DNA of 64,000 bases from a virus, in IMG/VR virus record IMGVR_UViG_3300027771_001853, positions 233,624-297,623 of that record; one strand, written 5' to 3'. The position numbers were made by a program, and so were the translations under genes. Below are positions 3,130 to 60,978 of this stretch, in pieces. Position 1 is the stretch's first letter, and every line of letters begins with the position of its first letter. The notes under the pieces are model-generated. The model worked only from the letters and a program-made list of their open reading frames with translations. It was not told the DNA's origin and made no database searches.

Positions 3130-4968
3130 CTATCTAAGTTCTCTAATGTCAAACGTTCTAACACCGTCAATTGTAATAGCTCCATAGAATCTATTGTTAA
3201 CCACCTTTTTAGCGTATCTAGTCATGATACCCTTGATTGGTGCAAAGTTAAATGGATTATACATTGTTGGTGTAAGTTGTAATGGTACATAAGGAGCGTA
3301 AATATATCCTGTGTCTAATAAAGATGTTCCTTTATGTCCAATTAACACTTTGTTAGCTGGGAAGTAAGGGTCTCTATATACAGTATATCTACCTGATAAT
3401 GTTCCAATCTTCTCAATACCCATATTGTACTGGTCTTGGTCTGGAGCTGCGTTTGAAGCGTGGAAGTATTCTAAGTCATCAAATATTGCAGAACATTCAG
3501 ATGAACAAACAATCCAGTTAGCACCACCTCTCAACGTAGATTTGTGAATCTGTGCTGAAATTTGGTTAATAGCAGTAATCAGAGTTTGATTCCAGTCTTT
3601 TTGAGTATAAGGAGCTTGTCCCGCTTGGAAACGTTTCCATCCGTTGTAATCCCATCTTAATGTCCAAGATGCTGCCGCTCTTAAATCTTTAAGAATCTCA
3701 CGGTCTATCTCAGCCGCAACTTCTTCAGATAATAGAGCTGTTAATTCAGCTTCTGCATCAATGTTATGGAACGCACTAACGTCTTGTGCAAGTTCTGGAG
3801 ACCAAGTAGCTCTTAATTTTCTTTCTGTTACCGAAACAGTTACAGAGTCTAAATCAAATGAAACTTCACCTAATTCATCTTCAAATTCAAGGTCTTGGTA
3901 AATTCTGTACTCAGCAGTAAAGTTAGTAGTTGCTAGTGTTGCGTTAACATTAGCTCCAACGTAACCATCTACAGACTCACATGTAATACATGCTGGACAT
4001 GATAAGTCTAATTCAACGTAAAGGTAACCTTCACCATCACAAACGTTGTCATAAGTAGAATCTTTTCCTGGCCAGTAAGAAGTACCTTGTCCTGGAATAT
4101 TATCTACAATACCTTTTCCGTATTTCTGAGTTACTAATCTAAAAGGTACATACCCTTGAGCTGCAACTACCTGAGTAGTACTACCAGTTGGACAACAAGT
4201 TACAGGATTTGTCGCTTTGAATTTCAAAGAAGACAAGAACTCTTCAGTATCCATCTCGTTACCATTAGGTCCAACTAATTTACCTTGTCCTAAGTTATTA
4301 AATCCACCTACTCTAACAAGTAAGCTTCTAAGTCCACCATTAAGACAGTCGTAACTATTATATGTCCCACTAGTAGTTGAACCAGTAAGAGTTTCGTAGA
4401 TAGTGGATGGAGTCATTGTTCCACCAGTAGTGTTCCACGTTACAAATTGAGCTGTACGTGACACACCTGAATATCTACCTTTCGAAATATCGAATAAACC
4501 TCTACCATCTTCATAGTATTGGTCATATAAGTTTACAGTGTCGTAAGTTTGTTGATTTGCGTTAGTTGCACCTGGCATTCCTTTTGGTTCGAAATGATTC
4601 CAAGTGTTATCTGCAGCACCTCCCCAACGTCTGTCGGAGATTTTTGGTACGAAGTAGAACAATTTACCAATTGGTAAGTTCAAAGCTTGTACCGATACAA
4701 TGTCGTTAGCTAGTAATTTAGAAAATACTCTTCTAATTATTGGGAAAACAACTGTTTCAAATGAACCTGAGGCATCAGCTTGTGTTGCCTCGTTGATTAA
4801 ATGCGTCGCTTGGTTTTCATATAACTGAGCGATGTTTTCTCTTGTATGACCTTTAAGTCCATCCAAGAAACCAAGTTTGTTCCATTTTTCAATAGTGTCT
4901 TCTCTAATAACTTTAAGATGTTTCAATCCGATATTACCTACTAATCCTGATTCTAATAAAGCACCCAT
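3130..4968 (-). CDS. Major capsid protein (T4 gp23-like)
   Basis: A 612-residue shell subunit. The N-terminal region up to THLINE|ATQ is followed by ETVVFPIIRRVFSKLLANDIVSVQALN, matching the gp23 layout in which a ~65-residue N-terminal piece is removed by the prohead protease and the mature chain then begins. The I-N-E at residues 58-60 fits the T4 protease rule (I/L-x-E). The C-terminal half keeps the gp23-like pattern: LSEEVAAEIDREIL, then NWIVCSSECSAIF, and KVLIGHKGTSLLDTGYIYAPYVPL. A Cys-rich insertion (CPACITCE) near residue 325 is unusual. Gene order capsid, core, protease, core-like, portal, terminase is the T4 head order read backwards. No own late box is seen, so it is probably transcribed with the core gene. 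Confidence 0.96.
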   Translation of the reverse strand: MGALLESGLVGNIGLKHLKVIREDTIEKWNKLGFLDGLKGHTRENIAQLYENQATHLINEATQADASGSFETVVFPIIRRVFSKLLANDIVSVQALNLPIGKLFYFVPKISDRRWGGAADNTWNHFEPKGMPGATNANQQTYDTVNLYDQYYEDGRGLFDISKGRYSGVSRTAQFVTWNTTGGTMTPSTIYETLTGSTTSGTYNSYDCLNGGLRSLLVRVGGFNNLGQGKLVGPNGNEMDTEEFLSSLKFKATNPVTCCPTGSTTQVVAAQGYVPFRLVTQKYGKGIVDNIPGQGTSYWPGKDSTYDNVCDGEGYLYVELDLSCPACITCESVDGYVGANVNATLATTNFTAEYRIYQDLEFEDELGEVSFDLDSVTVSVTERKLRATWSPELAQDVSAFHNIDAEAELTALLSEEVAAEIDREILKDLRAAASWTLRWDYNGWKRFQAGQAPYTQKDWNQTLITAINQISAQIHKSTLRGGANWIVCSSECSAIFDDLEYFHASNAAPDQDQYNMGIEKIGTLSGRYTVYRDPYFPANKVLIGHKGTSLLDTGYIYAPYVPLQLTPTMYNPFNFAPIKGIMTRYAKKVVNNRFYGAITIDGVRTFDIRELR

Positions 4969-8592: not shown

Positions 8593-10443
8593 CTAATCTT
8601 TTAGTAAATCTTCTAGGTTCTTACTAACATCCTCTAATTCCTTAACACCCTTATTAAGTTTTATTACTCCGTTGTTTGTTCTATCCTCAAGAATTAGTGG
8701 TAAGTCCGAATCTCTGGCAAACATTTCTATCTCTAAGTCTGCACCCATATCAGCTCCTCCAGCTCCACCTTCTTCAGCTGGTGGTTCTTCTGGGGCATCA
8801 CCTCCTAGGTCACCCCCTGAAGGTGGTGGTACGTCACCAAATCCTCCAGTGTCTTCACCTTCTTCTGTACCTGATTCTGCACCTCCTGCGTCTTCTTTTG
8901 GTGTTCCGTATAAAGCATCAATTTTATCAAAAATACCAGTACTTGTTATAACTTCACCAGTTTTACCCAATTCTTCACCAACAGCTTTCTCTATTCTTTG
9001 TTGTTGTAAATCTAACTTAACTTCTTCATCACTCATACCCAACACATTCTTTTTAGCCCATGTTGATGACGTTGCTTGAATCCCATTTCCTGGGTCGGTA
9101 ACACAGTCTCTATATAACGTAACTTTTTCTTTCCAAAGTTCAATTTTTAGTAAGTCCGATTGTGTGGATGGGTTAGTTAACCCTAATGTAAAATTATCTA
9201 ACTCGTCTTCAAAACCTAATATATACAAATGTATTATTGCTATTTTATTTAGTTCTTGTATAATAGCTTTTTGGACGTGGTTTATCGTTCTTGCAAATCT
9301 AATGTCTTGTAATGATAAATTTTTACCCTCACCTACTACGTCTTCAAAACCTAAAAAAGCTTTAGGTACACGTAATGCAGCTAATAATTTTTTCTGTATG
9401 TACTCAATATCCGCAATCTCACTTAAATTCTGTGCACCGGGTAAAGTTTCTATTGGCATAGGTGCTGCCGGGTCACGAACTGGGATAAAGTAATCTTGGT
9501 CCACAGCTAATTGATTGTACCTTAAATCCACATTACCATTTTGTGGGTCAACAACTTGGTCTCTTTTAAATTTATTAGCGATTCTTTGTACATAAGCCTC
9601 AACATCTTTATCATCCATATTCCCAACATAGACCTTAAATACCCTTCTTTCTGGTGCTCTAGAAGTCCTATAAATCAACATGGCATCTTCAGCTAACAAT
9701 AATTGTTTCCATATTCTTCTAGACTTATCTAGTACCGAGGTGCCATATGGTAATCTTCTATCGTCACCCAATAACCTAAAATGAGCTACTTCCCAATTTT
9801 TAAAAACCATATCCTTATCTTTCCAACCAAACTCTATCTTCCTATCTTCAGTGTCACCGTCAAATGCTCCAGCACCATAAGCGTCTGGTTTATTTTCAAT
9901 TCTTTCAATTTCTATGTTTGGTAGTTGGTTTACACCTAAAACCCCCTTTTTAGGGTCCACTTTAAGATACACAAAATTATCACCGTATTTACAAGTATTT
10001 CTAATCCACATAGGTAAATTAGTTTCCACATCTATCACATTATTGAATAGGTCTGCTAAGATACTTTTTATTCTTTTTGATTCGGAGTATATGTTCAACA
10101 TAAACCCTTGTTCTGACATTGTTGTTGCTTCGTCAGCCATAATATCTAAAGCTGCTGAAATTTCCGGAGTAAACTCCATGGATTCATAGTCATAATAAGA
10201 AGCTAACCTTGTAGGTTCATAGTAGACCGCTTGTTGGTATAGTTGGTTTTCTACCTTACTCCATTGATTATTTATATAAGATGATTGTTGTTGTTGTAGT
10301 TTTTCTTTTTCGTACTCAGCTTTGTCGGTTGTTCTTAAAAGCACTTCCTTATCAAAATCGTATGATGGTTTTGGGGCTCTTGGGCCATTTGGTCCAAACA
10401 GGGAAGCTAGTCTCTGATATAATGTTAAGTTTTTTTCTGCCAT
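8593..10443 (-). CDS. Portal protein (T4 gp20-like)
   Basis: 616 residues forming the dodecameric DNA gate at the head vertex. Portal-family features visible: SMEFTPEISAALDIMADEAT near residue 90, WEVAHFRLLGDDRRLPYGTSVLDKSRRIWKQLLLAEDAMLIYR in the wing, PERRVFKVYVGNMD, then QKKLLAALRVPKAFLGFEDVVGEGK and the long helix that follows. The C-terminal ~80 residues are a Gly/Glu/Pro-rich low-complexity tail (GGAESGTEEGEDTGGFG and similar) ending in a helix. Upstream is a small gene, then the terminase, the classic T4 order. Confidence 0.95.
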   Translation of the reverse strand: MAEKNLTLYQRLASLFGPNGPRAPKPSYDFDKEVLLRTTDKAEYEKEKLQQQQSSYINNQWSKVENQLYQQAVYYEPTRLASYYDYESMEFTPEISAALDIMADEATTMSEQGFMLNIYSESKRIKSILADLFNNVIDVETNLPMWIRNTCKYGDNFVYLKVDPKKGVLGVNQLPNIEIERIENKPDAYGAGAFDGDTEDRKIEFGWKDKDMVFKNWEVAHFRLLGDDRRLPYGTSVLDKSRRIWKQLLLAEDAMLIYRTSRAPERRVFKVYVGNMDDKDVEAYVQRIANKFKRDQVVDPQNGNVDLRYNQLAVDQDYFIPVRDPAAPMPIETLPGAQNLSEIADIEYIQKKLLAALRVPKAFLGFEDVVGEGKNLSLQDIRFARTINHVQKAIIQELNKIAIIHLYILGFEDELDNFTLGLTNPSTQSDLLKIELWKEKVTLYRDCVTDPGNGIQATSSTWAKKNVLGMSDEEVKLDLQQQRIEKAVGEELGKTGEVITSTGIFDKIDALYGTPKEDAGGAESGTEEGEDTGGFGDVPPPSGGDLGGDAPEEPPAEEGGAGGADMGADLEIEMFARDSDLPLILEDRTNNGVIKLNKGVKELEDVSKNLEDLLKD

Positions 10444-10735: not shown

Positions 10736-12469
10736 TTATTTTAGTCCTCCGAATAACCATAAATATTCTTTAGGGTTGTTTGGGTCCATATTGACAGGTC
10801 TCCCTGAAACTGTATGTGGACTCCATACCGGTTTATTACCTCTGGTTGGTTCTTCTCTTGCTACATCGGTGGTAACCCAACTATCTAACATTGCTTTAGC
10901 CTGGTTTGTGTTCCTTTCTAGTTCAGCGAAAGAATTTTGGGCTACGTATAATGCCATAGCAATTGCCATAATTAAGTCATCGTGGTGTCCTTTCATATGG
11001 TCTGGACGACCATTTAAATAAACAAATGTTTTAAACTCATTAATTAACCTATGTGACCTAACAATAAAACCTGTCCTTAATTGTTCTTCTAGAGCTTGTA
11101 TTATTTGTGCTCTTTTACTGTTAAAGTTAATCCCGGGACATTTATCCTCTTGGTTTGGGTTGAACTTCCAAATGTCGTTAGATTTTACATTATCATAATA
11201 TAAATTTTTGTATCCTAGTTCTATTAATTTTCTAGACGTTGACACTCCCATACCACCGGTAATGTCTACCACAATAAAACACTTATATTTTATAGCCCAT
11301 TTATTTGCTAATTCAGCCGCTATATCTGGTGGGATTTTCCCTAAGTATTCTAATACTTGTTCCCTATCATCAAAATCTATAATAGTAAAAGATGTAAAAT
11401 CGTCACTATCCCCTCTGGAAACATCAATCCCCATAATGTAACGATGACCTTCTTTTGGTGGTTTCCAAACCCATAGAGTATTACCTACCCATATCTCTAG
11501 TGGGTCACACACGTCTTTCATTAAGTCAGCTATAGTGTCTGAAGGTATAACATTATCACCCGAACCTAAAAATGCACATTCTAGTTCTTGTGATATTTTT
11601 CTTCTGTCAAACTTTAATTTTTTACACATTTTTTCAAACCAATCAGTAAATGGTTTGTAACCTAACTGTAATAATTCATCAGCCCTATCTAACGAGTTTT
11701 CTAATATTTCTTCATCTTTATACTCATCTCTATTTAATAGGAAATGTGTAATATCTTTAGTTTTTACCCACCTTAATCCTTTATTAAATCTAGGGTCACG
11801 AAACCACGTTAAACTACTAATTTTAAATTGGTTTAGTCCTCTAATGGATTGGTCATATATCTCATAATAAATCCTGTCGAATCCGTTCGGTGTGGATATC
11901 ACCACAACCTTACCCCCTGTAGCTAAAGATGCCATACACGCTGCCCATAAATCATCACCGGACTCTATGTAAGCCGCCTCATCAAATATTAACATAGTGG
12001 GCGTGTAACCCCTCAACGCATCCACAGATGTTGCTACAGCTTTTACTTCTGAATCATTATTTAATTTATAATGTTTTTGAGTGTCTTTGTCTTTAGAAAA
12101 CCCAACATTTATCCAATCGGGCCACTGACGTAAAAATCCTTTTATTTTACTAGCCATCTCTACTGCCGTATCTAATTTATTAGCTAATATAAGTATTTTT
12201 TCTGGTTTTTCTTTTGATGCGAATTGTAGTGTTTTAGATATCCAAGCTGATGTAGCGGTAGACACTCCTGCCTGACGATACTTTAAAACTATATTATCAT
12301 TATAGTTTTCATAGTCATGAATCATCTCTACTTGTTCGGGAAATAATTTAAATGGGACGTACTTACTCTGAGTATTATCATAAGTTTCCAAATATGTTCT
12401 TAGAGCATAATCGGTGTCTTTATAACACTTAGCGTATTCTTTTATATATTCTTGTCTATTCATAGCCAT
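10736..12469 (-). CDS. Terminase large subunit (T4 gp17-like packaging ATPase/nuclease)
   Basis: 577 residues. The ATPase domain has the deviant Walker A RQAGVST (65-71) typical of gp17-like terminases, Walker B TMLIFDEAA with Asp163/Glu164, and a coupling motif VVVISTPNG. The nuclease domain opens with RYIMGIDVSRGDSDDF, has CFIVVDITGGMG, and ends with KGHHDDLIMAIAMAL carrying the acidic metal ligands. The protein docks on the portal and pumps then cuts the concatemeric DNA. Two Met codons six bases apart (12469 and 12463) are possible starts; an ATATTTATTATAT element lies directly upstream. Confidence 0.97.
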   Translation of the reverse strand: MAMNRQEYIKEYAKCYKDTDYALRTYLETYDNTQSKYVPFKLFPEQVEMIHDYENYNDNIVLKYRQAGVSTATSAWISKTLQFASKEKPEKILILANKLDTAVEMASKIKGFLRQWPDWINVGFSKDKDTQKHYKLNNDSEVKAVATSVDALRGYTPTMLIFDEAAYIESGDDLWAACMASLATGGKVVVISTPNGFDRIYYEIYDQSIRGLNQFKISSLTWFRDPRFNKGLRWVKTKDITHFLLNRDEYKDEEILENSLDRADELLQLGYKPFTDWFEKMCKKLKFDRRKISQELECAFLGSGDNVIPSDTIADLMKDVCDPLEIWVGNTLWVWKPPKEGHRYIMGIDVSRGDSDDFTSFTIIDFDDREQVLEYLGKIPPDIAAELANKWAIKYKCFIVVDITGGMGVSTSRKLIELGYKNLYYDNVKSNDIWKFNPNQEDKCPGINFNSKRAQIIQALEEQLRTGFIVRSHRLINEFKTFVYLNGRPDHMKGHHDDLIMAIAMALYVAQNSFAELERNTNQAKAMLDSWVTTDVAREEPTRGNKPVWSPHTVSGRPVNMDPNNPKEYLWLFGGLK

Positions 12470-34405: not shown

Positions 34406-36724
34406 CTAAAATTTCTCTGTTTTTTTAATGTTTCTACGTGTTTTTAAATCATAAGCTTTTCTTACTTTTCTAGAACCATCACCTAAAGCTGGGAAATTAT
34501 GATTATCGTAACATGTTTTAAGTGGTCTTAAATTAGTTGCCTTTTTCATACCACTTTTTAACATACCAGCTTCAAACCTAATTAAAATCTGACAATACTT
34601 TTTTTGTTGTTTACCAGAAGAATTCATAACATCTTTTTGTAACTTACCTCTTTTACCTGGTACACTTTCACTTTGTGTTTCTTCTTTTTCAGGTTTTACT
34701 GGACTAGGTTTTACTGTTGTTGTGTCTGTGGTAACTGTTTCTTCTTCAGGTTTTACTGTTTCACCAGCAGTCTCATTCTTATATTTTAAAGTTTCCAAAG
34801 CTATTAAATCATCACAATCTATAACCCCTCTTTGTGATTGGTCACTCTTACCTAAAAAGGCATTAACAGCTGTTTTAGTTTCTGCACCGAAGTCACCGTC
34901 TGCTCCATGTTCAGGTAATTTATAACCATTTCTTATCAATTCTTTCTGTAGTTGTTTAACACCACTTCCACTATCACCTAATTTAAACACATTAGTACAT
35001 TCTTTTACTGAGTCATATGATTTTGTTTCTTTTTTCTTTTTTGGTTTGTTTTCTTCACCAGCAGTGTTGTCAACTTTTCCTCTAACTCTACGGATTCTAT
35101 GTTTTCCCTCAATCTCACTTCTACTATATTTTTGTTCACCTAGAAAATGGTTTTCTTTTATTAACCTTTCCAAACCTTTATAAGCTTCTTGTAATACCTC
35201 AAAATCAGCCGCATCCATCACATATGCGATTGCTGCACCTTGTAATACATGATTTTGTCTTTTTGCTGTTCTAGGGTTATCTTGTACCATCTCATCATAA
35301 ATGACATCAGCATAACCACCAGGACCAGCAATAGTACCTAAATCTTCACCTTTTTCATAAAGTTCTCCGGCTACCTCAATATCCCTACCTAATTCGTAAT
35401 CACCACCAGTAGAGTCACCCTTTCCAAATATTTTTAATATAGCTGCTCTATCATCTGCGTCCGCTATTGCTCCTACTTTTTTATTAGGTAACAATAAATA
35501 AACTTTATCTTCAGAATTTTCTATATATTCAAACTGTCCTAAATATTCTTTTCCTGCGGCTACAAATACTGGAGCTACATTACCATCAACAAACACATCA
35601 ACAGTATCACCATCAAATAATAGTTTAAATTTAACTCTTGTGGCTGGTAAACCTTCTGGTCTATTAACCATATCATTCGCTAAATTTTCTATTTTATCGT
35701 TTAAGTCCTCTGGACTATATATTTTTTCACCATCAATAATACAAATAGGTTTATCTCTTAATATATCAGCAATCGGTTGGAAGTCACCCTCATCCAATTC
35801 ATCTAATAATTCTTCTAACAAAGGTGTCCCAAATTTTAATTGGTAGATACCTGATAAGTGTGAACAATCGTAAAGTGAATTTATTTGTCTAAAAGCTGAG
35901 TAGATATCATCTTCTTCTGTACCAGCACCTTTTGTAGCTCCAAAAGACAACACATCAACAACCCCTTTACCAAAATATTTTTCACCACCTTCAGTAGCAT
36001 CATTAATTACATCAGCTAATTGGGATAATGCTCCTTCATCTTGAAAATTAAAAGGTATTTCCTGTATTAGACCTTGTTGTTCTACTTGGTCGTAAACTTC
36101 CGGTGTAAAAGCGATAGATAAGTAATCGTCTTCACTTAACTCACCACCACCAGACCAATCCTCCATAGCTGAGGCTGCGTTTCCTGGTACTTTCGCACCA
36201 CTACTACCTATATTACCTATAAGATACGCTCCCGTACCCCAAGTTAATAACCTGTTTAATCCAGAAGCGGCTTGTTTATTAATAATTGCTTTACTTACAT
36301 TAAGTGGTACAAGTCCTTTGCCTAATTTTTGACCAGTAGCTATTTTTGACGCGATAGACGCTGGTACACCCTTTAACCCAGTTGTACTTACTCTACCAAA
36401 CCCACCTATCCATTTTAAACCATTAGGTAAACTTTTCATTATACCACGACTACCTATCGATGCTCCACCTCTACCTATATTAGCTAAACCTCTAACAGCT
36501 GTAGGAAGAATTCTTGCTAGTCCAGCAATTAATGGTGCCCACTCAGTTAAAAGAGCGTACGGTTTTTCACTATTATTTTTTTTAGTATTTTTTGGTGTTA
36601 ACTTATCTAAGTTATTATATTCTAATAAGTCTTTTTGTTCTGTATGTGGTTGTGCTCTGTCGAACCCAATTAAATACTGTAAAGAGCCTAATTCCTCTTT
36701 AAGATTTTGTTTGTCTTTTTGCAT
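34406..36724 (-). CDS. Large late protein with C-terminal peptidoglycan-binding domain
   Basis: The start at 36724 gives 772 residues; an upstream extension would read through the late box. The N-terminus reaches KDLLE|YNN (residue 35), a possible protease site. A Gly/Ala/Arg-rich region (GLARILPTAVRGLANIGRGG) looks membrane-active. The central ~350 residues are acidic and unrecognised. Near residues 600-660 is a peptidoglycan-binding type 1 module: LGDSGSGVKQLQKELIRNGY, then DGDFGAETKTAVNAFLG. The C-terminus is Lys/Arg-rich. It may be an injected or baseplate-associated protein helping DNA cross the cell wall; this is inference from domain and leader. Confidence 0.75.
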   Translation of the reverse strand: MQKDKQNLKEELGSLQYLIGFDRAQPHTEQKDLLEYNNLDKLTPKNTKKNNSEKPYALLTEWAPLIAGLARILPTAVRGLANIGRGGASIGSRGIMKSLPNGLKWIGGFGRVSTTGLKGVPASIASKIATGQKLGKGLVPLNVSKAIINKQAASGLNRLLTWGTGAYLIGNIGSSGAKVPGNAASAMEDWSGGGELSEDDYLSIAFTPEVYDQVEQQGLIQEIPFNFQDEGALSQLADVINDATEGGEKYFGKGVVDVLSFGATKGAGTEEDDIYSAFRQINSLYDCSHLSGIYQLKFGTPLLEELLDELDEGDFQPIADILRDKPICIIDGEKIYSPEDLNDKIENLANDMVNRPEGLPATRVKFKLLFDGDTVDVFVDGNVAPVFVAAGKEYLGQFEYIENSEDKVYLLLPNKKVGAIADADDRAAILKIFGKGDSTGGDYELGRDIEVAGELYEKGEDLGTIAGPGGYADVIYDEMVQDNPRTAKRQNHVLQGAAIAYVMDAADFEVLQEAYKGLERLIKENHFLGEQKYSRSEIEGKHRIRRVRGKVDNTAGEENKPKKKKETKSYDSVKECTNVFKLGDSGSGVKQLQKELIRNGYKLPEHGADGDFGAETKTAVNAFLGKSDQSQRGVIDCDDLIALETLKYKNETAGETVKPEEETVTTDTTTVKPSPVKPEKEETQSESVPGKRGKLQKDVMNSSGKQQKKYCQILIRFEAGMLKSGMKKATNLRPLKTCYDNHNFPALGDGSRKVRKAYDLKTRRNIKKTEKF

Positions 36725-47267: not shown

Positions 47268-47867
47268 ATGAAAAAAATAACACTAACATTCATCCTAATC
47301 CTACTTTCAGTACTTGGGTTTTCCCAGTATAGTGACTTTGAGTTGGCGGTGGCTGATGGGGTGAACGAATATAGAAACTCACAGGGTTTGTCAGACTTAG
47401 AATTTTTACCTTCATTAAGTGACAAACTGGATTTCTTACTGGAGAGGGTTGTTGATGCTAATTCGTTGTGGGGACCTGATGGGGGACACTCTTCAAATTT
47501 TAAATATTCTGGTAAACTAATTTCTGAACAGATTAAAGAAAATACCGTACCCAATAAAGAAATAGAAACGTTATACAAAAGTATAAAATTTAAATATGAG
47601 TCAGTAAAAATGATACGAGGTGAAGGAGAGACAACGTTTAACTCTATTTCACATTTAGCTGGTGAAAATTTATTTCGTACAAATTATGATATGGACCCAA
47701 AAAGGTTTGTGGTTAACTGGATAAACTCACCAACACACGAACATATAATGACTTTAGATAAACATAGAGAAAACGTAGTCCCTATTGGTGTTGTTAATGT
47801 GATTTACGATGGTCAATGGTGTTACGTTACATTCATAATAATATTATTAGAAAAAGAAGACCTTTAA
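47268..47867 (+). CDS. Secreted CAP (SCP/PR1)-like protein 1
   Basis: 199 residues with signal peptide MKKITLTFILILLSVLGFSQ. The CAP signature is recognisable: VNEYRNSQGLSDL opening helix, GGHSS, and a later AGENLF...VVNWINSPTHEHIM block (helix, W-x-x-S-P-x-H). The canonical first His region is changed to WGPDGGHSS. CAP proteins are exported, with varied roles including peptidase-like or lipid-binding functions. It is directly followed by a second CAP gene. Confidence 0.8.
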   Translation: MKKITLTFILILLSVLGFSQYSDFELAVADGVNEYRNSQGLSDLEFLPSLSDKLDFLLERVVDANSLWGPDGGHSSNFKYSGKLISEQIKENTVPNKEIETLYKSIKFKYESVKMIRGEGETTFNSISHLAGENLFRTNYDMDPKRFVVNWINSPTHEHIMTLDKHRENVVPIGVVNVIYDGQWCYVTFIIILLEKEDL

Positions 47868-47902
47868 AGAAACAAAACACAACCTACAACGTATACTATA
47901 AT

Positions 47903-48382
47903 ATGAAGAAACTAATCACATTATTATCCCTAATCTTAACACTAAACTCTTACGGTCAAACCGTTTTAGATTCACTTGTTTTTAAAAGACTTAACGAGTA
48001 CCGTATAGAGAACGGTAAAGTAGCCTTAACTTTAGATACCTTAGTATATAAAGCGGCTTACCACCATTCTAAATACTTACACGACAATGGTTGGGATTGG
48101 GGGCACAGAGAAGATTCTTTGGTTAAACCTTGGGATAGATTAAAAGCACAGGGATTATTTTTTTGGTCGGCTGGTGAGAACATAGCTACGTTTACCGTAA
48201 ATTTAGTTTCACAAGATGGGTGGGTGGATATGGAAGCTTTATCAACACAAGTTTTAACTCAGTGGATTGGTTCACCTTCACATCATTGGTTAATGTTAAA
48301 CGAAAAGATTAACCAGGGAGCTATAGCTGTATACATTGGTTCTGGAAAGGTATTTGTAACACTAAACGCGATAAAGCAATAA
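47903..48382 (+). CDS. Secreted CAP (SCP/PR1)-like protein 2
   Basis: The start at 47903 gives 159 residues with signal peptide MKKLITLLSLILTLNSYGQ. The CAP features are clearer than in its neighbour: FKRLNEYRIENGKVALTLD, then HHSKYLHDNGWDWGH with the active-site-like His, SAGENIATF, and QWIGSPSHHWLML. Both His residues of the CAP cavity seem present. Tandem placement suggests duplication followed by divergence. Confidence 0.85.
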   Translation: MKKLITLLSLILTLNSYGQTVLDSLVFKRLNEYRIENGKVALTLDTLVYKAAYHHSKYLHDNGWDWGHREDSLVKPWDRLKAQGLFFWSAGENIATFTVNLVSQDGWVDMEALSTQVLTQWIGSPSHHWLMLNEKINQGAIAVYIGSGKVFVTLNAIKQ

Positions 48383-53432: not shown

Positions 53433-53550
53433 TAAAATAAATTTAGATAAACAGAATCGTATGTTACGGTTTGGTTTTGGAAAACATAACGGAACCTGGT
53501 TCATAAGAATAGACCTTTGGTACTTCGGAATAAGGATATACAAAATATAA
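53425..53550 (+). CDS. Small hypothetical protein
   Basis: 41 residues, including MLRFGFGKHNGTWFIRIDLW and a YFGIRIYK end. The ATG overlaps the ligase stop by 8 bases in another frame. The pattern F-G-K-H-x-G-x-W-F-x-R-(I/L)-D-L-W recurs in small phage proteins, supporting reality. Confidence 0.65.
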   Translation: MYNKINLDKQNRMLRFGFGKHNGTWFIRIDLWYFGIRIYKI

Positions 53551-53555
53551 TAAAT

Positions 53556-56030
53556 ATGAAATTTACAATAGATTTAAAGGAGGTCTGTCTTGACGACATA
53601 CCATTAGTAGGTGGTAAAAACGCGTCACTAGGTGAGATGATTCAAAATTTAACTAAAGTAGGTATAAAAGTACCAGGTGGTTTTGCTGTCACTTCTGATG
53701 GTTATTGGGAGTTTTTACGTTATAATGGTTTAAAAACTATAATTAGGAAATTAGTGGAATCCATCAAGGAAGACGATGTGGTGTCATTAAGAAAGGTCGG
53801 TAATGAAGTTAGACAAATTATAAGAAATGGAAAATGGCCACAAGAACTAAAAGATGAGATTAGAGAAAAGTATAATCAGATGTGTGAAGAGTACGGACAC
53901 GACATGACTGATGTAGCTGTTCGTTCATCAGCTACAGCTGAAGATTTACCTGACGCGTCTTTTGCCGGTCAACAAGAAACCTATTTAAATGTTAGGGGTC
54001 CAGAAACATTATTAGAGTCCGTTAGGAATTGTTTTGCTTCCCTTTTTACTGATAGAGCAATTTCATACAGGGGTACTTTTGGTTTCGACCACTTCAACGT
54101 AGCTCTTTCGGTATGTGTACAAAAAATGGTTAGAACCGACTTAGGTTCTTCCGGTGTAGCGTTTTCTATAGATACGGATAGTGGTTTTAAAGATACTGTA
54201 TTGATTAACTCGTCTTATGGTTTAGGTGAAATGGTTGTACAAGGTTCTGTATCTCCTGATGAGTTCCTAGTATTTAAACCAACACTAGAAAAGGGGTTTA
54301 GTTCTATTATAGAAAAAAAGATGGGTATAAAAGACAATAAAATGATTTACGGTAGTGACCCAGGTAAATTAACGAAAATAGTACAAATACAAGAATCACA
54401 ACAAAAAGAATTTTCTATAAGTGATAAACAAGTATTAAAAATTGCTGAATGGGTTACTTTTATAGAAAGGTATTATTCGGAACGTAAGGGGTCGTGGTGC
54501 CCTATGGATATAGAATGGGGTATAGATGGTATGACTAACGAATTACACATACTACAGGCTAGACCAGAAACAATACATTCTCGTAAGACTAATGATACTT
54601 TGGTTGAGTATAAACTACAAAAGAATGACGACAATAAAGTAAAATTAAAAGGTATAGCTGTTGGTGACAGGATAGGTTGTGGTGAAGTAAGGATACTCCA
54701 TTCAATAGATGGTAGAGATGGTAGTCTTGATGGTGCTGATTTTAAGGCTGGTGATGTGTTAGTAACTGATATGACCGACCCAGACTGGGAACCTTTAATG
54801 AAAAAAGCTAGTGCTATAGTAACAAATAAGGGTGGTAGAACTTGTCACGCTGCAATTGTAGCTAGGGAATTGGGTGTCCCAGCGTTAGTGGGTTGTGTAA
54901 ATGCTACAGAAAAACTTGTAGATAATGAAGTGGTTACTGTAAGTTGTACAGAAGGTGATGTGGGGTTTGTTTATGAGGGGGAAGTTAAATACGATAAAAT
55001 AGAAACATCACTTAAAGACCTACCAGAAGTTAAAACACCAATAATGTTAAATGTGGCTTCACCAGATTTAGCTTTTAAATTCTCGAGTCTACCACATAGT
55101 GGTGTTGGTTTGGCTAGAGAAGAATTCATAATAAACAATTATATAAAAGCTCACCCACTTGCTTTATTGAGACATAAGGGTTTGGGTGACGAAAAATTAA
55201 GTAAATCTATAGAACAACTAACACAAGGGTATAAGGATGAGGAAACTTTTTTCGTTAAAAGATTGTCTTATGGTGTAGCAAAAATAGCTTCAGCTTTTTA
55301 CCCACAAAAAGTTATTGTTAGGTTATCTGATTTTAAAACTAATGAATATAGAAATTTATTAGGAGGAGAGTACTTCGAACCAGTAGAGGAAAACCCAATG
55401 ATTGGTTGGCGTGGAGCTTCAAGATATTACTCAGAAGAATATAAAGAGGCTTTCGGAATGGAGTGTAAAGCGATTAAAAGAGTTAGGGAAAAAATGGGAT
55501 TAAGTAATGTAACTATTATGATTCCTTTTTGTAGGACAGTAGAAGAATTACATAAGGTTTATGGTGTAATGAAAGAATATGGTTTAGAACGAGGTAAAGA
55601 TGGGTTAGAGGTTTATTTAATGGCCGAGTTACCCTCAAACATTATACTAGCTGAAAGTTTTGCAAAACATATAGACGGGTTTTCAATTGGTTCTAACGAC
55701 CTAACACAATTAACCTTAGGTTTAGATAGAGACTCTTCTTTAGTTGCTCACTTATACGACGAAAGAAACGAATCGGTTAAAGAATCAATTAGGACACTTA
55801 TAAAGGTGGCTAAAAAAACTAAAACAAAGGTGGGTATATGTGGACAAGGACCTTCAGACTTCCCTGATTTTGCTTCGTTTTTAGTTGAGGAAGGGATAGA
55901 TAGTATATCGGTTACCCCCGATTCCCTACTTAAAACTTTAAAGACACTTAGTCGTCTTGAACGGGATTCAGATATTAGGTATTCTGCCTCTATAGATGGA
56001 CCAGGTCAACCAGTTAAAGAAATTTATTAA
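53556..56030 (+). CDS. ppsA: Phosphoenolpyruvate synthase (pyruvate, water dikinase)
   Basis: 824 residues from the ATG at 53556, close to the usual ~790. It converts pyruvate, ATP and water to PEP, AMP and phosphate. N-terminal ATP-grasp domain: VGGKNASLGEM, DVAVRSSATAEDLPDASFAG, and QARPET. Central phosphohistidine domain: GGRTCHAAIVARELG with His431. C-terminal PEP/pyruvate TIM barrel: NPMIGWRGASRYYSEEY, GSNDLTQLTLGLDRDS and GICGQGPSDFPDF with Cys762. All catalytic residues are intact. Start chosen because an upstream extension overlaps the 41-residue gene. The last gene of the ligase operon. Confidence 0.96.
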   Translation: MKFTIDLKEVCLDDIPLVGGKNASLGEMIQNLTKVGIKVPGGFAVTSDGYWEFLRYNGLKTIIRKLVESIKEDDVVSLRKVGNEVRQIIRNGKWPQELKDEIREKYNQMCEEYGHDMTDVAVRSSATAEDLPDASFAGQQETYLNVRGPETLLESVRNCFASLFTDRAISYRGTFGFDHFNVALSVCVQKMVRTDLGSSGVAFSIDTDSGFKDTVLINSSYGLGEMVVQGSVSPDEFLVFKPTLEKGFSSIIEKKMGIKDNKMIYGSDPGKLTKIVQIQESQQKEFSISDKQVLKIAEWVTFIERYYSERKGSWCPMDIEWGIDGMTNELHILQARPETIHSRKTNDTLVEYKLQKNDDNKVKLKGIAVGDRIGCGEVRILHSIDGRDGSLDGADFKAGDVLVTDMTDPDWEPLMKKASAIVTNKGGRTCHAAIVARELGVPALVGCVNATEKLVDNEVVTVSCTEGDVGFVYEGEVKYDKIETSLKDLPEVKTPIMLNVASPDLAFKFSSLPHSGVGLAREEFIINNYIKAHPLALLRHKGLGDEKLSKSIEQLTQGYKDEETFFVKRLSYGVAKIASAFYPQKVIVRLSDFKTNEYRNLLGGEYFEPVEENPMIGWRGASRYYSEEYKEAFGMECKAIKRVREKMGLSNVTIMIPFCRTVEELHKVYGVMKEYGLERGKDGLEVYLMAELPSNIILAESFAKHIDGFSIGSNDLTQLTLGLDRDSSLVAHLYDERNESVKESIRTLIKVAKKTKTKVGICGQGPSDFPDFASFLVEEGIDSISVTPDSLLKTLKTLSRLERDSDIRYSASIDGPGQPVKEIY

Positions 56031-56068: not shown

Positions 56069-56428
56069 ATGAAGTTAACAAAACAACAATTAAATAAAAA
56101 ACTAAGGTCAAAAATACTAACACTACAAGCACGGAAAAAAAATCTAAAGGATTTACGAATTATGGTGGTTAGGGCAAGAAACGTAGATGTAACAAATGTT
56201 TTGTACCGTCACACTTCTGTAACTGTAAAAATATCAGGAGAGGTTAAATCCAGTAACGACAAATGGCTTCCTTTACAACTTTATAGACCAAACCAAATTA
56301 GAAAATTTTTACGTAGGAAGGATGTCGGTATAGTTGAATCTGTAAGTAAGTGGGTTAGATTGTGGGGTTTTGATAGTGATGTGTCCCTAGAGACGATAGA
56401 CATTGTTAATAAGGTTTTACCTAATTAA
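56069..56428 (+). CDS. Basic hypothetical protein
   Basis: 119 residues, strongly basic N-terminal helix MKLTKQQLNKKLRSKILTLQ, then beta-rich SVTVKISGEVKSSNDKWLPL and a C-terminal helix. May bind nucleic acid. Own leaderless-type promoter; its stop overlaps the convergent T9SS-domain gene by 12 bases. Confidence 0.68.
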   Translation: MKLTKQQLNKKLRSKILTLQARKKNLKDLRIMVVRARNVDVTNVLYRHTSVTVKISGEVKSSNDKWLPLQLYRPNQIRKFLRRKDVGIVESVSKWVRLWGFDSDVSLETIDIVNKVLPN

Positions 56429-56947
56429 ACTAACTTGTCCTGTATAGTGTTGGTTGTGGGTCCTAATTGAATACCCGTATACACCTATTTGACAACCCTT
56501 ACCATCCCAGGGGCTATTATTTGTAGTCTCATATATTTTCTCACCCCACCTATTAAAAATTATCATCAATTCTATATCACCCTTGTCAGCACCATGCACA
56601 TAAAAAGTCTCATTGGAGTTATCTTCGTTTGGTGTAAAAGAGTTAGGTACGAATATTTGTAGGTAGGGACAGTCCTCTATTATTACTTCGTGGTACGAAG
56701 TATCACCTTCACACCCAAACCTTGTAGTATAAACAGATATTATGTACGTACCTATAGAGTCAGGCCATTGTACTGTAATTGAATTCCCTTGGTCGTATAT
56801 GATTTGACCTTGTGAAATATCCCAGTAATATAATTTATCCACATCATAACTTACTTGGTATTCTTGTGGTACTATGTCACCACAATTCGTATAAGTTTCT
56901 TGTGCGAATAATTGCAGTGGTAGTAATATGTATACTAACCACTTCAT
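56417..56947 (-). CDS. Exported protein with T9SS type B (CHU_C) sorting domain
   Basis: 176 residues. Signal peptide MKWLVYILLPLQLFAQE, then a PKD/SprB-like region (YYWDISQGQIIYDQGNSITV, with W-P-D and Y-I-I-S-V strands), and from about residue 98 the gliding-motility-associated C-terminal domain: FVPNSFTPNEDNSNETFYVH, then ELMIIFNRWGEKIYET, SPWDGKG and a final VYGYSIRT...GQVSLIR. In flavobacteria this domain targets proteins to the type IX secretion system. A phage copy would be delivered through the host T9SS or mimic its substrates. Last of a three-gene exported cluster, one base after the previous stop. Confidence 0.9.
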   Translation of the reverse strand: MKWLVYILLPLQLFAQETYTNCGDIVPQEYQVSYDVDKLYYWDISQGQIIYDQGNSITVQWPDSIGTYIISVYTTRFGCEGDTSYHEVIIEDCPYLQIFVPNSFTPNEDNSNETFYVHGADKGDIELMIIFNRWGEKIYETTNNSPWDGKGCQIGVYGYSIRTHNQHYTGQVSLIR

Positions 56948-56948
56948 A

Positions 56949-57491
56949 TTAAAAGTGTTGTATTGGTCCTGTTACCGGTCCGTTATTTACTATAACATTG
57001 ATGGTTGTATTACAACCTGCCATTGAGTAAGTTAGTACGTAGTTTCCTACACCTGCTGTTGATGGTTGGAATGTATTAGCTACTACACCTGTTCCTGTCC
57101 ATGTACCACCTAACGGGGTACCTACTAATGGTGTTGTTGGGTCACCAGGACAAAAAGGTCCTATGACATTCCCAGATAAATCTAACACAAACACGTCTAA
57201 TAGTACCGGCGTTCCAGGACAGTTGGCAGCGTTTGATTCTATTACCTCAATTGCGTTTGGGTAAAGTCCTGAACCAACTCCCGTGTAATCCACGGTAATT
57301 GAATTCGTTCCTTGTCCTGTACTTAATGTTCCACCACCTGTAACTACCCAATTATATGTTGACGTTGGTGTGTTTGTTACAAAGTATTGTTCCCCAGTTG
57401 CGTTTACACACACTGTGTCTGGGTTGATTGTTGTTTGTCCGTATGTTGCTAACCCGAAGCAAACTAATAGAACTGTAAGTAATTTTTTCAT
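56949..57491 (-). CDS. Exported SprB/PKD-like repeat protein
   Basis: 180 residues. Signal peptide MKKLLTVLLVCFGLATYGQ, then a PKD-like module beginning DTVCVNATGEQYFVTNTP, with YNWVVTGGGTLSTGQGTNSI and VDYTGVGSGLYPNAI, as in flavobacterial adhesin repeats. A second beta module with GGTWTGTGVVANTFQPSTAG completes it. No sorting domain of its own, but it is translated together with the CHU_C protein. Possibly a two-part surface structure. Confidence 0.85.
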   Translation of the reverse strand: MKKLLTVLLVCFGLATYGQTTINPDTVCVNATGEQYFVTNTPTSTYNWVVTGGGTLSTGQGTNSITVDYTGVGSGLYPNAIEVIESNAANCPGTPVLLDVFVLDLSGNVIGPFCPGDPTTPLVGTPLGGTWTGTGVVANTFQPSTAGVGNYVLTYSMAGCNTTINVIVNNGPVTGPIQHF

Positions 57492-57516
57492 AGTTTTTGT
57501 TTTTTTTTGTTTATGT

Positions 57517-57550
57517 TTTGTCTTGTTTTCTCGTGAATAAACAAGACAAA
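57517..57550. other. 12-bp stem-loop between exported-protein genes
   Basis: TTTGTCTTGTTT and AAACAAGACAAA form a perfect 12-bp stem with a 10-base loop, positioned between the stop at 57558 and the start at 57491. Likely an attenuator or processing site that separates expression of the two genes. Confidence 0.55.
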
Positions 57551-57557
57551 GTTATTA

Positions 57558-58121
57558 TTAATAATGATTTATGTTCGACGTAATGGGTGTTACTACTTGA
57601 ACGTTTCCGTTGTATATGTTAAAGGCTGGGTCAGTACAACACGCCCCATTGTTCCAACCACCAGTAAGACAATCTCCTATTACGTTTATACCAATAGACA
57701 AATCATCAGGAGTACATGTTGGTCCTACAGTTACTCTAAATCTCATTGTGAATGGTCCTGTTGAACTACTTCCCCAGTCTGGATTAAAACCTGTGTTAAT
57801 AAATCTCCATCCAGGTCCAAAATTTAATCCACTTGGGTACGTATTTTGTACATCCCACGTCCAGGTTCCAGGTTGTGTTCCTCCACCTACTGGAGTTATT
57901 AATGGTATTAAGTTAGTCCATCCTGTCCCTAAGTTAATTTGAAATGCGATTATCCAATTTATGTTTAGTTGTGTGAATGTCCCTAATGTATAATCCACAG
58001 CGACAACATCTCCTGGTTGATATGGTCCAACTGGTGTCATAGTAAACGACTGATTTGAGACACACTGTGAATGAACGGTTAAGTTAATAAATAAAAATAA
58101 TACAAATAATAGTCTTTTCAT
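57558..58121 (-). CDS. Exported beta-sandwich protein
   Basis: 187 residues with signal peptide MKRLLFVLFLFINLTVHSQ. The mature chain is beta-rich and Trp/Gly/Pro-rich (YQPGDVVAVDYTLGTFTQLN, IPLITPVGGGTQPGTWTWDV, FGPGWRFINTGFNPDWGSSS), resembling Bacteroidota secreted repeat domains. Cys residues near the end (GDCLTGGWNNGACCTD) may form disulfides. First gene of the exported cluster, under a late box. Confidence 0.8.
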   Translation of the reverse strand: MKRLLFVLFLFINLTVHSQCVSNQSFTMTPVGPYQPGDVVAVDYTLGTFTQLNINWIIAFQINLGTGWTNLIPLITPVGGGTQPGTWTWDVQNTYPSGLNFGPGWRFINTGFNPDWGSSSTGPFTMRFRVTVGPTCTPDDLSIGINVIGDCLTGGWNNGACCTDPAFNIYNGNVQVVTPITSNINHY

Positions 58122-58176: not shown

Positions 58177-58689
58177 TTATGTAATACCTTGTTCTTTTAA
58201 TATTCTTTTAATTAATTTTTTGCTTTCTGAAAGATTACGTAATTTAATTAAGTCTCTTTTTATTCTAGCTACATTAATCCTTAATAAATCTACATTGTCC
58301 CTATCTCTCCTACTTTTATATCCTTTTTTGGACATTAATTCATCTAAGTATTCCTGACTAACCTCTAACTCTTTAATTTTTTGTAATATCTGTGGGGACT
58401 CTAATTCTTTCTCTGGTTTTACTGGTGGTGGTGGTGGTTCTGGTACCTCATCTATAGTTAATGATTTTATATAGTCTTCTGGTGAGTCTATATATTTTTC
58501 TAGTTCGGAAACCCCTCTTTTCAATACGTTTTCCATAGCTTGTCTAGTTAACCTTAAATTAAGTGAGTCTGTAATATCAGGAATATCCATAGATAGGATT
58601 TCAGATTTGTCAGCTTGTTTAATTACGTCTAACAAACTAATCTCATTAATTATTTTATTATACTGATTCTTATTAACTAGTATTTTCAT
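58177..58689 (-). CDS. Hypothetical late protein with leader
   Basis: 170 residues. MKILVNKNQYNKIINE|ISL holds an I-N-E site at residue 16. The rest is helical and charged, with a PEPPPPPVKPEKE linker and a C-terminal coiled region ending in LIKRILKEQ (another L-K-E). ATATTTATTGG lies directly before the ATG (3 bases). Confidence 0.68.
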   Translation of the reverse strand: MKILVNKNQYNKIINEISLLDVIKQADKSEILSMDIPDITDSLNLRLTRQAMENVLKRGVSELEKYIDSPEDYIKSLTIDEVPEPPPPPVKPEKELESPQILQKIKELEVSQEYLDELMSKKGYKSRRDRDNVDLLRINVARIKRDLIKLRNLSESKKLIKRILKEQGIT

Positions 58690-58721
58690 ACCAATAAATA
58701 TTCCTATAGAGTCAATTAAAA

Positions 58722-59273
58722 CTAAACTCTTTTAGACGTACCAATTAACTGATAATAATCTTTTTTACCCTCTAGGTATTCTTTACATAATTTTAACATT
58801 CCTTTAAACATGAAAGCACCTGTGGTTTGTTTTTCACACTTACAAAATAATTCAACAAGTGTGGCTATTAGGTCTATTGGTAAGGCACCAATATCATCTA
58901 ATTCCTGGTAGGTTTTCGACAACCCTTTGGTATATCTTAGTTTATAACCGTCTCTTTCCTCTACAGTTGTAAATGGTTCTATATTATCATAAACAATACT
59001 TAAAGCGTTAACCAAAGATAATGTAGCTCTCTTGTTTAGTTCTCCTTTAATTACCAAATCAACAATCCAGTGTGTATGTGATGGTGTTCGTAATCTTTTA
59101 TTTGGTTCTTTATATTTTACGATAAAATCTAGGTCTGGGTTTTCCCCACGAAATCCTTGGTATATCGCTACTATGGTACCGTCTTTCATTTCCCATTGGT
59201 TTAACGGGTAACTACGTCTATCTTCGTTTTTTATTTTATAGGATAAATCTACTATTTTACTTTGCTGGGTCAT
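58722..59273 (-). CDS. Hypothetical protein
   Basis: 183 residues, mixed alpha/beta. Segments include WEMKDGTIVAIYQGFRGENP, DLDFIVKYKEPNKRLRTPSH and LPIDLIATLVELFCKCE. No family recognised. The start overlaps the SET-domain gene by 17 bases, implying coupled translation. Confidence 0.65.
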   Translation of the reverse strand: MTQQSKIVDLSYKIKNEDRRSYPLNQWEMKDGTIVAIYQGFRGENPDLDFIVKYKEPNKRLRTPSHTHWIVDLVIKGELNKRATLSLVNALSIVYDNIEPFTTVEERDGYKLRYTKGLSKTYQELDDIGALPIDLIATLVELFCKCEKQTTGAFMFKGMLKLCKEYLEGKKDYYQLIGTSKRV

Positions 59274-59556
59274 ACCATTTATATTTTAAAGTTAGTTCTT
59301 CACCACGTTGTATGGTTTTTTTAGTTTTAATCTGAATTAAACCATCATCCTCAACTCGTTCACAGTTAGGTTTTTCCGAATGGTTTATAAAACCACCTAG
59401 TGGTGTTCTAACGTAACTATCTTCGAATCTAATGTCTTTTACGTGACTTATGCCCATAAATAAATCTTTATCTAAATCATCTATAGCGAATAGACCTAGT
59501 CCTTGTACTTCAGATTCTTTAATTGTTAGGTAGTGTGGTAGAGGTTTGTAATTCAT
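59257..59556 (-). CDS. SET-domain protein (putative protein lysine methyltransferase)
   Basis: The start at 59556 gives 99 residues. SET landmarks: VQGLGLFAIDDLDKD (N-terminal G-x-G-x-F-A), YVRTPLGGFINHSEKPNC with the conserved N-H-S-x-x-P-N-C, and GEELTLKYKWYD (G-E-E-L-T-x-x-Y). These residues bind S-adenosylmethionine and form the pseudoknot active site. It would methylate lysine on a protein substrate, host or phage. Minimal size, lacking flanking pre- and post-SET parts; similar stand-alone SET proteins occur in bacteria. Confidence 0.88.
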   Translation of the reverse strand: MNYKPLPHYLTIKESEVQGLGLFAIDDLDKDLFMGISHVKDIRFEDSYVRTPLGGFINHSEKPNCERVEDDGLIQIKTKKTIQRGEELTLKYKWYDPAK

Positions 59557-59593
59557 ATAATTAAATGTAACGAATAAAAACATAAATTTCCAA

Positions 59594-59601
59594 TATTTAT
59601 T
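59594..59601 (+). promoter_or_regulatory. Late-type box TATTTATT on the plus strand
   Basis: TATTTATT ends 3 bases before the ATG at 59605. This is the clearest plus-strand case and shows the box in the sense direction there too. Confidence 0.5.
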
Positions 59602-59604
59602 GAT

Positions 59605-59811
59605 ATGAGAGTTACAAAATCAAGAAGTATATTGAAAGCTGTGAGTTGGAGAGTTATAGGAACGTTAGATACTATGGCTCTAGGGTGGTTAGTAACCGGA
59701 AGTCCGTTACTAGGTTTAAAAATAGGGGCACTAGAATTAGTGACTAAATTTGCCCTATATTATATGCACGAAAGAATATGGTTAAAATGTAAGTTTGGTA
59801 CTAAGGATTAA
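59605..59811 (+). CDS. DUF2061 membrane protein
   Basis: 68 residues with the DUF2061 pattern: SILKAVSWRVIGTLDTMALG, then LVTGSPLLGLKIGALELVTKF and YYMHERIW. Two membrane spans. In bacteria the family accompanies sulfate or nucleotide-sugar metabolism genes without a known biochemical role. Its stop overlaps the convergent late gene by 4 bases. Confidence 0.85.
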   Translation: MRVTKSRSILKAVSWRVIGTLDTMALGWLVTGSPLLGLKIGALELVTKFALYYMHERIWLKCKFGTKD

Positions 59812-60266
59812 TTAGAAATACCTGTACCTAAAACCTTGAGTGCGTCTCCTAGTCCACTTGCTAATGCTGATACACTTTTTACACCTAGACAAGTAAGAAC
59901 ACCAGTTAAATTAACAGCTTTCTCAAAACTCATTTGACAATTAGGGTTTTGCATTATGTTCATCATTTCACATTCTGAATTTTCCGTCATCCAAGTTTTA
60001 AGTGAATCATCATCACACTCCTTCAACATTTGTTGAAGTTTTGTTTTGTTCTCATTACCCAACTCAGTCCAAAACATTTTCCAATCCTGAGGTGATGATT
60101 GTGTATTTTCCCCCATATCTTGTTCTGGTTCATCTTGTTTAAATCCGTGACCAAATGCAGCTCCTGTAGGGGTTTCTTTTATTAAAGTTCCGTGTTGATT
60201 TTTGTGAGAATTGTGAAGTCCTCTAATCCTATCTTTTTCTGACTCTGTTAAGTTAATTTTTTTCAT
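59808..60266 (-). CDS. Late protein with class B leader
   Basis: 152 residues. MKKINLTESEKDRIRGLHNS continues to GTLIKE|TPTG, an I-K-E site at residue 31. The body is acidic and helical with two Cys pairs (LKECDDDS, ENSECEM, NPNCQM) and a hydrophobic C-terminal segment VKSVSALASGLGDALKVLG. Part of a three-gene tandem with similar leaders. Function unknown. Confidence 0.7.
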   Translation of the reverse strand: MKKINLTESEKDRIRGLHNSHKNQHGTLIKETPTGAAFGHGFKQDEPEQDMGENTQSSPQDWKMFWTELGNENKTKLQQMLKECDDDSLKTWMTENSECEMMNIMQNPNCQMSFEKAVNLTGVLTCLGVKSVSALASGLGDALKVLGTGISN

Positions 60267-60284
60267 TGTGTTTTTTTTTTTGAT

Positions 60285-60566
60285 TTAGTTTATGTTACCA
60301 CTTGTGTTTATATAATCATCCGCTTTATTTAAATAATCCGCGGCTAATGTAATTTTATCCATCCACCAAGTAGGTAATTCACCACCAACCTGTTGTAATT
60401 CAGCTAATTTCTCTAATATATCGTCAGCGTTATCTAAAATTAGTTTACATTTTCTAATAGCTGAAGGAATATCTGTATGACCATCCTCATTTAAAGTTAT
60501 TTTTTTACCCTTAATAACTTTTTCTATAAGATTTACTAGTTCTGATTCTTTAATTTCAACTTTCAT
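60285..60566 (-). CDS. Late protein with class A leader
   Basis: 93 residues. MKVEIKESELVNLIEKVIKG continues to ITLNE|DGH (L-N-E, residue 27). The mature part is a helical bundle candidate: IRKCKLILDNADDILEKLAE, then LAADYLNKADDYIN. Sits between two class B leader genes. Confidence 0.7.
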   Translation of the reverse strand: MKVEIKESELVNLIEKVIKGKKITLNEDGHTDIPSAIRKCKLILDNADDILEKLAELQQVGGELPTWWMDKITLAADYLNKADDYINTSGNIN

Positions 60567-60576
60567 GGTATATTAC

Positions 60577-60978
60577 TTATATTCTTTGTCCGTCTGTTCC
60601 CTTACCTGATTGACACCAACTATGTAAAGCTTTTAATACTGGTTTATCAGTTCCACAAGCTCTAGGACATCCACCCCTGTGTGAATGTTTACAATATTCC
60701 ATTAAAATTTCTTCAGTAAGGTTATTGGTTAGGTCTCCCATGTTCTTCAACCACTCCAACGGATTCCATTCGGTTTCTGAGTCTGGTGAAGTTTCACTAG
60801 ACGTAGATTTTACTGCATCAGTATTACGTGATTGTTCACCAACGTCTTGTCTACTATTAAACTTATCCAACCTATCCGAACCTTCTTGTTTGGTTACGAA
60901 CCCAGATTGTTCATTGATGTGGTGTAGACCTTTGATTCTGTTCTTTTCTTCCTCACTAACTTTAAACTTATTATTCAT
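60577..60978 (-). CDS. Late protein with class B leader and Cys-rich C-terminus
   Basis: 133 residues. MNNKFKVSEEEKNRIKGLHH continues to INE|QSGF (I-N-E, residue 23). The middle is Ser/Asp/Glu-rich; the end has CKHSHRGGCPRACGTDK and a further Cys, a possible zinc-binding knuckle. First gene of the tandem, under the late box at 60992-60999. Confidence 0.7.
   Translation of the reverse strand: MNNKFKVSEEEKNRIKGLHHINEQSGFVTKQEGSDRLDKFNSRQDVGEQSRNTDAVKSTSSETSPDSETEWNPLEWLKNMGDLTNNLTEEILMEYCKHSHRGGCPRACGTDKPVLKALHSWCQSGKGTDGQRI

Follow-up and report, generated by a model that had tools for sequence, protein, structure and literature searches.

A three-gene cassette of large marine phages homologous to an operon of Flavobacteriales and putatively directed to the host type IX secretion system

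Why does a jumbo phage carry three consecutive genes whose products appear to be destined for the outside of the host cell? The genes lie in IMG/VR virus record IMGVR_UViG_3300027771_001853, in a stretch of 64,000 nucleotides (positions 233624-297623 of the 297,623-bp record) that is called the window here and to which coordinates refer unless a locus or genome is named. They are arranged head to tail on the minus strand as A (57558-58121), B (56949-57491) and C (56417-56947), with C starting 1 nucleotide past the stop of B. It is highly probable, judging from sequence comparisons, that this trio is both homologous to an operon of the host group and directed to export through the type IX secretion system (T9SS).

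Gene A is an open reading frame (ORF) of 187 amino acids that encodes a signal peptide and a single all-beta domain, and its product matched no Pfam or NCBIfam family. The product of B (180 amino acids) has a signal peptide, a PKD_6 domain (residues 21-88; 57228-57431, minus strand) and a second Ig-like domain, and it is the best conserved of the three, with a mean column identity of 84% across 13 phage homologues. That of C (176 amino acids) has a signal peptide, one Ig/PKD-like region and a type B T9SS C-terminal sorting domain (CHU_C/TIGR04131; 56420-56653, minus strand). The domain scores 49.5 bits against PF13585 CHU_C (cut-off 27) and 40.3 bits against TIGR04131 (cut-off 35), both matches reach the C-terminus, and C is the sole TIGR04131 match across the 297,623-bp record. 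C has two features expected of a T9SS type B substrate, the sorting domain and a putative Sec signal peptide. The first-pass annotation of this DNA had called three consecutive genes with signal peptides, the third closing in a complete type B sorting domain, and these calls are correct. It had also read SprB/PKD-like repeats in the second gene. One PKD_6 domain is present (35.2 bits, cut-off 25); a family search of B found no SprB repeat family, and B does not qualify as an SprB repeat adhesin.

All three products plausibly start with a Sec-type signal peptide, as judged by eye and by the conservation of a glutamine across alignments. The putative peptides are MKRLLFVLFLFINLTVHS in A (58068-58121), MKKLLTVLLVCFGLATYG in B (57438-57491) and MKWLVYILLPLQLFA in C (56903-56947), all on the minus strand, and in each case glutamine directly follows the likely cleavage site (after VHS, TYG and LFA, respectively). 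This residue is invariant, as Q19 in 35 homologues of A, Q19 in 24 of B and Q16 in 24 of C. A lipoprotein reading of A, whose mature protein would open with SQC, was dismissed by eye because the lipobox is missing. AlphaFold2 models depict A as a beta-sandwich (predicted local distance difference test score, pLDDT, 82) and B with a pLDDT of 88; the C-terminal tails of both are extended and modelled with lower certainty than the domains. The intergenic gap between A and B (57488-57562, minus strand) holds a perfect 12-bp hairpin (-12.6 kcal/mol, z-score -4.45) that is not followed by a T-run.

The phage appears to bring the cargo but not the machinery. SprA is present in six of seven host genomes, the seventh being a possibly incomplete metagenome-assembled genome (MAG), and PorP/SprF shuttles are present in all seven, with three to seven in each. 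Neither was found in 11 phage records, comprising this phage and 10 related ones. The phage proteins would therefore depend on the translocon and shuttles of the host. Type B substrates rely on PorP/SprF shuttles for secretion, placement and anchoring (PMC12618676). Three further secreted proteins (G000:47581-48099, 155204-156211 and 35225-36523) have tails that resemble the T9SS type A signal by eye (DLxGRxx...GxYII...K), with no NCBIfam score, and a Por_Secre_tail (type A) protein scoring 49.4 bits is encoded at L021:49-1338, on a phage contig that also carries a terminase and the trio.

The cassette is not peculiar to this record. Scans of IMG/VR recovered A at 30 loci and B at 19, and all three genes cluster within a few kilobases on 28 contigs beyond the window, some of them near-duplicates. 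Absence of the cluster from other phage genomes had been named as the sign of contamination; what was found is recurrence under constraint, which excludes chance as well as contamination. Of the 29 contigs, the window included, 16 have the arrangement A-B-C and 13 have B-C-A; no other arrangement occurs. Ratios of nonsynonymous to synonymous substitution (dN/dS, from a Nei-Gojobori script; distant comparisons are saturated) lie between 0.04 and 0.26 in most close pairs, with one divergent C pair higher, and the trio is under purifying selection. The divergence of the cassette does not parallel that of the terminase. Compared with record G402, identity is 28.5% for the terminase and 65%, 68% and 54% for A, B and C; compared with G404, the corresponding values are 73% for the terminase and 44%, 68% and 46% for the trio. 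This disagreement indicates that the module moves between phages. In several relatives the cassette adjoins genes that are located elsewhere in the genome of this phage.

The trio is homologous, by the sequence comparisons that follow, to a chromosomal A-B-C operon of some Flavobacteriales. When bacterial genomes were scanned with the alignment of A, eight loci were returned, every one titled as a Flavobacteriales MAG. On contigs of sufficient length, B comes after A and is succeeded by a type B gene; the operon was recognized by an A-domain gene that adjoins a B gene, with a type B gene following or nearby. The surrounding order is guaA, a LysM/periplasmic-binding-like (PBP1) protein, A-B-C, LolA1 and FtsK, where LolA1 alone was assigned by a family model and the other neighbors were named by eye. 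One of the contigs with this context is 1.06 Mb long. In a second host clade an additional, large type B gene lies upstream of A. When the phage B profile was searched against the host genomes, its best match was the gene adjoining A in seven of seven, so that phage B matches the B of the operon and not some random Ig-like protein, a result that holds for this one search direction. The distribution of A is restricted: of 397 genomes sampled from the order, 16 have it, each with a size of 1.3-2.0 Mb, and within the family it is present in 10 of 52. A freshwater-type A occurs in two of 396 genomes of a phylum-wide sample, of which one is the query centre G001. By maximum likelihood, the tree of A requires three changes between phage and host labels and leaves parts open; A has likely been exchanged between phages and hosts, with the direction and number of events unsettled.

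Phage and host versions differ in size. Phage B spans 173-190 amino acids versus 278-575 in hosts, phage C 170-194 versus 353-427, and phage A 184-205 versus 200-810. Most of the host repeat domains are missing from the phage proteins.

A and B also share a C-terminal tail, which, like the homology to the host operon, the first-pass annotation did not mention. A ends in ITSNINHY (57561-57584, minus strand) and B in VTGPIQHF (56952-56975, minus strand). The aligned phage proteins conform to IxH[YFN] in 24 of 24 free-standing A proteins and to PIxH[FYN] in 24 of 24 B proteins. In host clade 1 both A and B end in PIxHN, and in clade 2 PI[IV][TSFY]N endings take its place. All fetched loci together hold 2,845 ORFs of 60 or more amino acids, of which 189 end in IxH[NYF], and every one of these is an A- or B-slot protein; this set is redundant and was collected around the trio or the tail pattern, so the count speaks to specificity, not to probability. 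Searched as DNA in whole host genomes, PIxHN followed by a stop gave zero to three matches, mainly on A and B genes. The notion that PIxHN is a general secretion signal was rejected: the DNA pattern stands at about control level in large Flavobacteriales genomes, and most of its occurrences in the marine family are on A- and B-slot genes.

The tail persists where the domains change and is missing where the parts are fused. Some relatives lack a detectable A domain and still have tailed A- and B-slot proteins beside a type B gene. In host relatives at L137-L148 and at loci L126-L129 of the G040 group, other N-terminal domains occupy the A slot or an additional, large type B gene lies upstream, yet these relatives keep the tail or a variant form. 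Three fused phage homologues are without the tail: a 550-amino-acid protein at L025 that contains A, B and C parts (the B part by eye), a 732-amino-acid B-C fusion in LR745206 and a 1,670-amino-acid A...C fusion in LR756502. Each is a single chain that terminates in the sorting domain. From these patterns we infer that the tail may be a docking tag, dispensable once the parts are covalently joined. A more detailed proposal is rather doubtful at present: (P)IxH[NYF] would be an undescribed C-terminal assembly tag that docks A and B onto the type B anchor C, either beyond the outer membrane or so that they are exported jointly; phages would exploit it with minimal subunits that co-assemble with the host structure and disable it.

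What, then, might the trio do? The explanation that we favor, at somewhat less than an even chance, is that it is a miniaturised phage copy of a Flavobacteriales operon for a three-part cell-surface complex, which probably replaces or caps the complex of the host and would most likely serve to mask or eliminate a receptor and so prevent re-infection. During infection A, B and C would be exported by Sec; C would then cross the outer membrane through the host T9SS and be held at the surface by a host shuttle of the PorP/SprF type, and A and B would assemble with C, or ride on it, by way of the common tail. Replacement or capping is suggested because the A domain, the tails and the sorting domain are kept in proteins that are usually much shorter. 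A surface receptor would thereby be hidden or removed, and the infected cell would be spared re-infection by competing phages. Given the homology to a single operon, the retained signals and the loss of most repeat domains, the best reading is a pared-down form of the host complex that interferes with it, and we infer that the phage displays such a miniature, possibly interfering, structure. Superinfection exclusion as the benefit is itself a tentative proposition. Among the uses suggested by the first-pass annotation, receptor blocking is plausible, and interference with the gliding machinery is not specifically supported.

Several observations weigh against this explanation. The phage C profile matches 10-24 proteins per host, so that a match to C does not by itself point to the operon, and use of the operon's own shuttle by phage C would be conjectural. 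One host A, at 200 amino acids, is no longer than phage A. The assignment of this phage to a Flavobacteriales host is itself indirect, the records consist largely of fragments, and phage A or C could function independently of the host complex.

The main rival, which we consider unlikely, is that the trio makes the infected cell adhesive. It holds that the trio is displayed by the host T9SS for attachment, which would keep infected cells on particles or aggregate them with neighboring cells and so help progeny to reach new hosts. Fold searches agree with it to the extent that A resembles an adhesin domain, pilins and cohesins, and B resembles Ig-type cell-adhesion proteins and intimin D00-D0, but these matches are weak (template modelling score below 0.45 relative to the query). 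Related phages encode additional secreted or outer-membrane-like proteins near the trio, which would also suit attachment. That the homology is to one host locus, and that the phage proteins are usually shortened, suggests interference at least as well, however.

Physiological replacement is less probable again. Here the phage would top up a host surface complex that turns over in infection and so sustain envelope or gliding function, much as auxiliary genes do. The gene-for-gene homology to the host operon is what this idea predicts, and the phage has other envelope genes, including a TonB-dependent receptor, but phage B and C are without most host repeat domains and fit poorly with full replacement.

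Ig-like domains are common on virions, and one of the weak fold matches of B is a phage N4 capsid entry. That the proteins are virion parts mimicking host adhesins, with incidental signal peptides and sorting domain, is nevertheless very improbable, since those signals are conserved in all full-length homologues, the trio is not among the head and packaging genes, and its flanks differ from phage to phage; the virion alternative raised in the first-pass annotation is accordingly unsupported. An assembly artefact or host contamination, which the chromosomal location of the homologous operon in bacteria and a related contig with B joined to a foreign 5' part (L006/L022) might suggest, is ruled out by recurrence of the trio on 28 other phage contigs, including terminase-bearing ones, by its position in L005 beside an 89% homologue of another gene of this phage, and by phage versions unlike those of hosts in length and gene order. 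The B fusion in that related contig (L006:5108-6001, IMGVR_UViG_3300030095_005243; also L022) is in frame with an unrelated 5' part, neck-protein-like by eye, and is likely a chimeric assembly.

The record itself is a genuine tailed jumbo phage, because genes for the terminase large subunit (10736-12469; phrog_2, 143 bits), which served the horizontal-transfer comparison, the portal protein (8593-10443; phrog_213, 227 bits) and the major head protein (3130-4968; phrog_138, 232 bits) all lie in the window, on the minus strand. No direct DNA match to phage records was found. The reading first proposed, export in the manner of the host with a type B T9SS signal encoded by a bona fide phage, is supported.

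Parallels exist for parts of this arrangement. T5 Llp is an envelope lipoprotein for superinfection exclusion that is made by the phage and exported. It resembles the present case as a phage-made exported protein acting at the cell surface or on a receptor, but it is a single lipoprotein, whereas the present cassette, a copy of a host operon, encodes three proteins with a T9SS sorting domain, and exclusion is putative. The sprC-sprD-sprB-sprF genes of F. johnsoniae likewise encode a type B surface protein together with accessory gliding or surface proteins; the phage and host A-B-C operons differ in having no sprF-type shuttle gene, and SprB differs in being very large and mobile on the gliding track. 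The orphan type B substrates Fjoh_1123, Fjoh_1720 and Fjoh_4934 of F. johnsoniae also have no adjoining shuttle gene and use a common shuttle encoded elsewhere, but they are not reported with A or B partners (PMC12618676). Cryophage is the only precedent found for phage T9SS cargo: it has three type A cargo genes, was proposed to use the host system, and was also suggested by its authors to gain superinfection exclusion (Bellas et al. 2020, PMC7468147). Both phages encode products with T9SS C-terminal sorting domains, but in Cryophage the domains are of type A and belong to single, variable genes that encode enzymes and a PA14 protein, whereas the present type B domain belongs to a conserved trio, homologous to a host operon and common to many phages. 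In the open-access literature, from which many journals are missing, no report of phage type B cargo, of the A-B-C host operon or of the tail was found.

Other genes of the phage include a full TonB-dependent receptor of 801 amino acids (G000:32099-34504, minus strand; locus L027 12099-14504), with plug and barrel above cut-off. Nearby are outer-membrane-protein-like genes and one for a secreted, thioredoxin-like protein whose tail resembles type A; with that query no relatives were found in IMG/VR, and INPHARED matches were short, partial and of low identity. Beside the cassette is a pyruvate phosphate dikinase/phosphoenolpyruvate synthase-like gene (53517-56030, plus strand), an unusual metabolic gene for a phage. 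Two secreted CAP-domain-like proteins are encoded at 47268-47867 and 47816-48382 (plus strand), the first scoring below the Pfam cut-off. A recurrent short N-terminal motif (such as INLTESEKDRIRGLH, VSEEEKNRIKGLH or MKxIIxxxLREE) occurs at 58177-60978 (minus strand) and in many G000 genes, on many small proteins of the phage, and is possibly a targeting or packaging signal.

These results connect a module that recurs among large marine phages with a surface operon, so far uncharacterised, of streamlined marine Flavobacteriales, and they suggest that the virus remodels the exterior of the infected cell. If the favored explanation is true, the cassette would be a testable case of a virus mimicking an entire host surface complex by way of the T9SS, would point to what these phages may use or contest on the cell surface, and would suggest a new C-terminal tag in T9SS-linked surface assembly.
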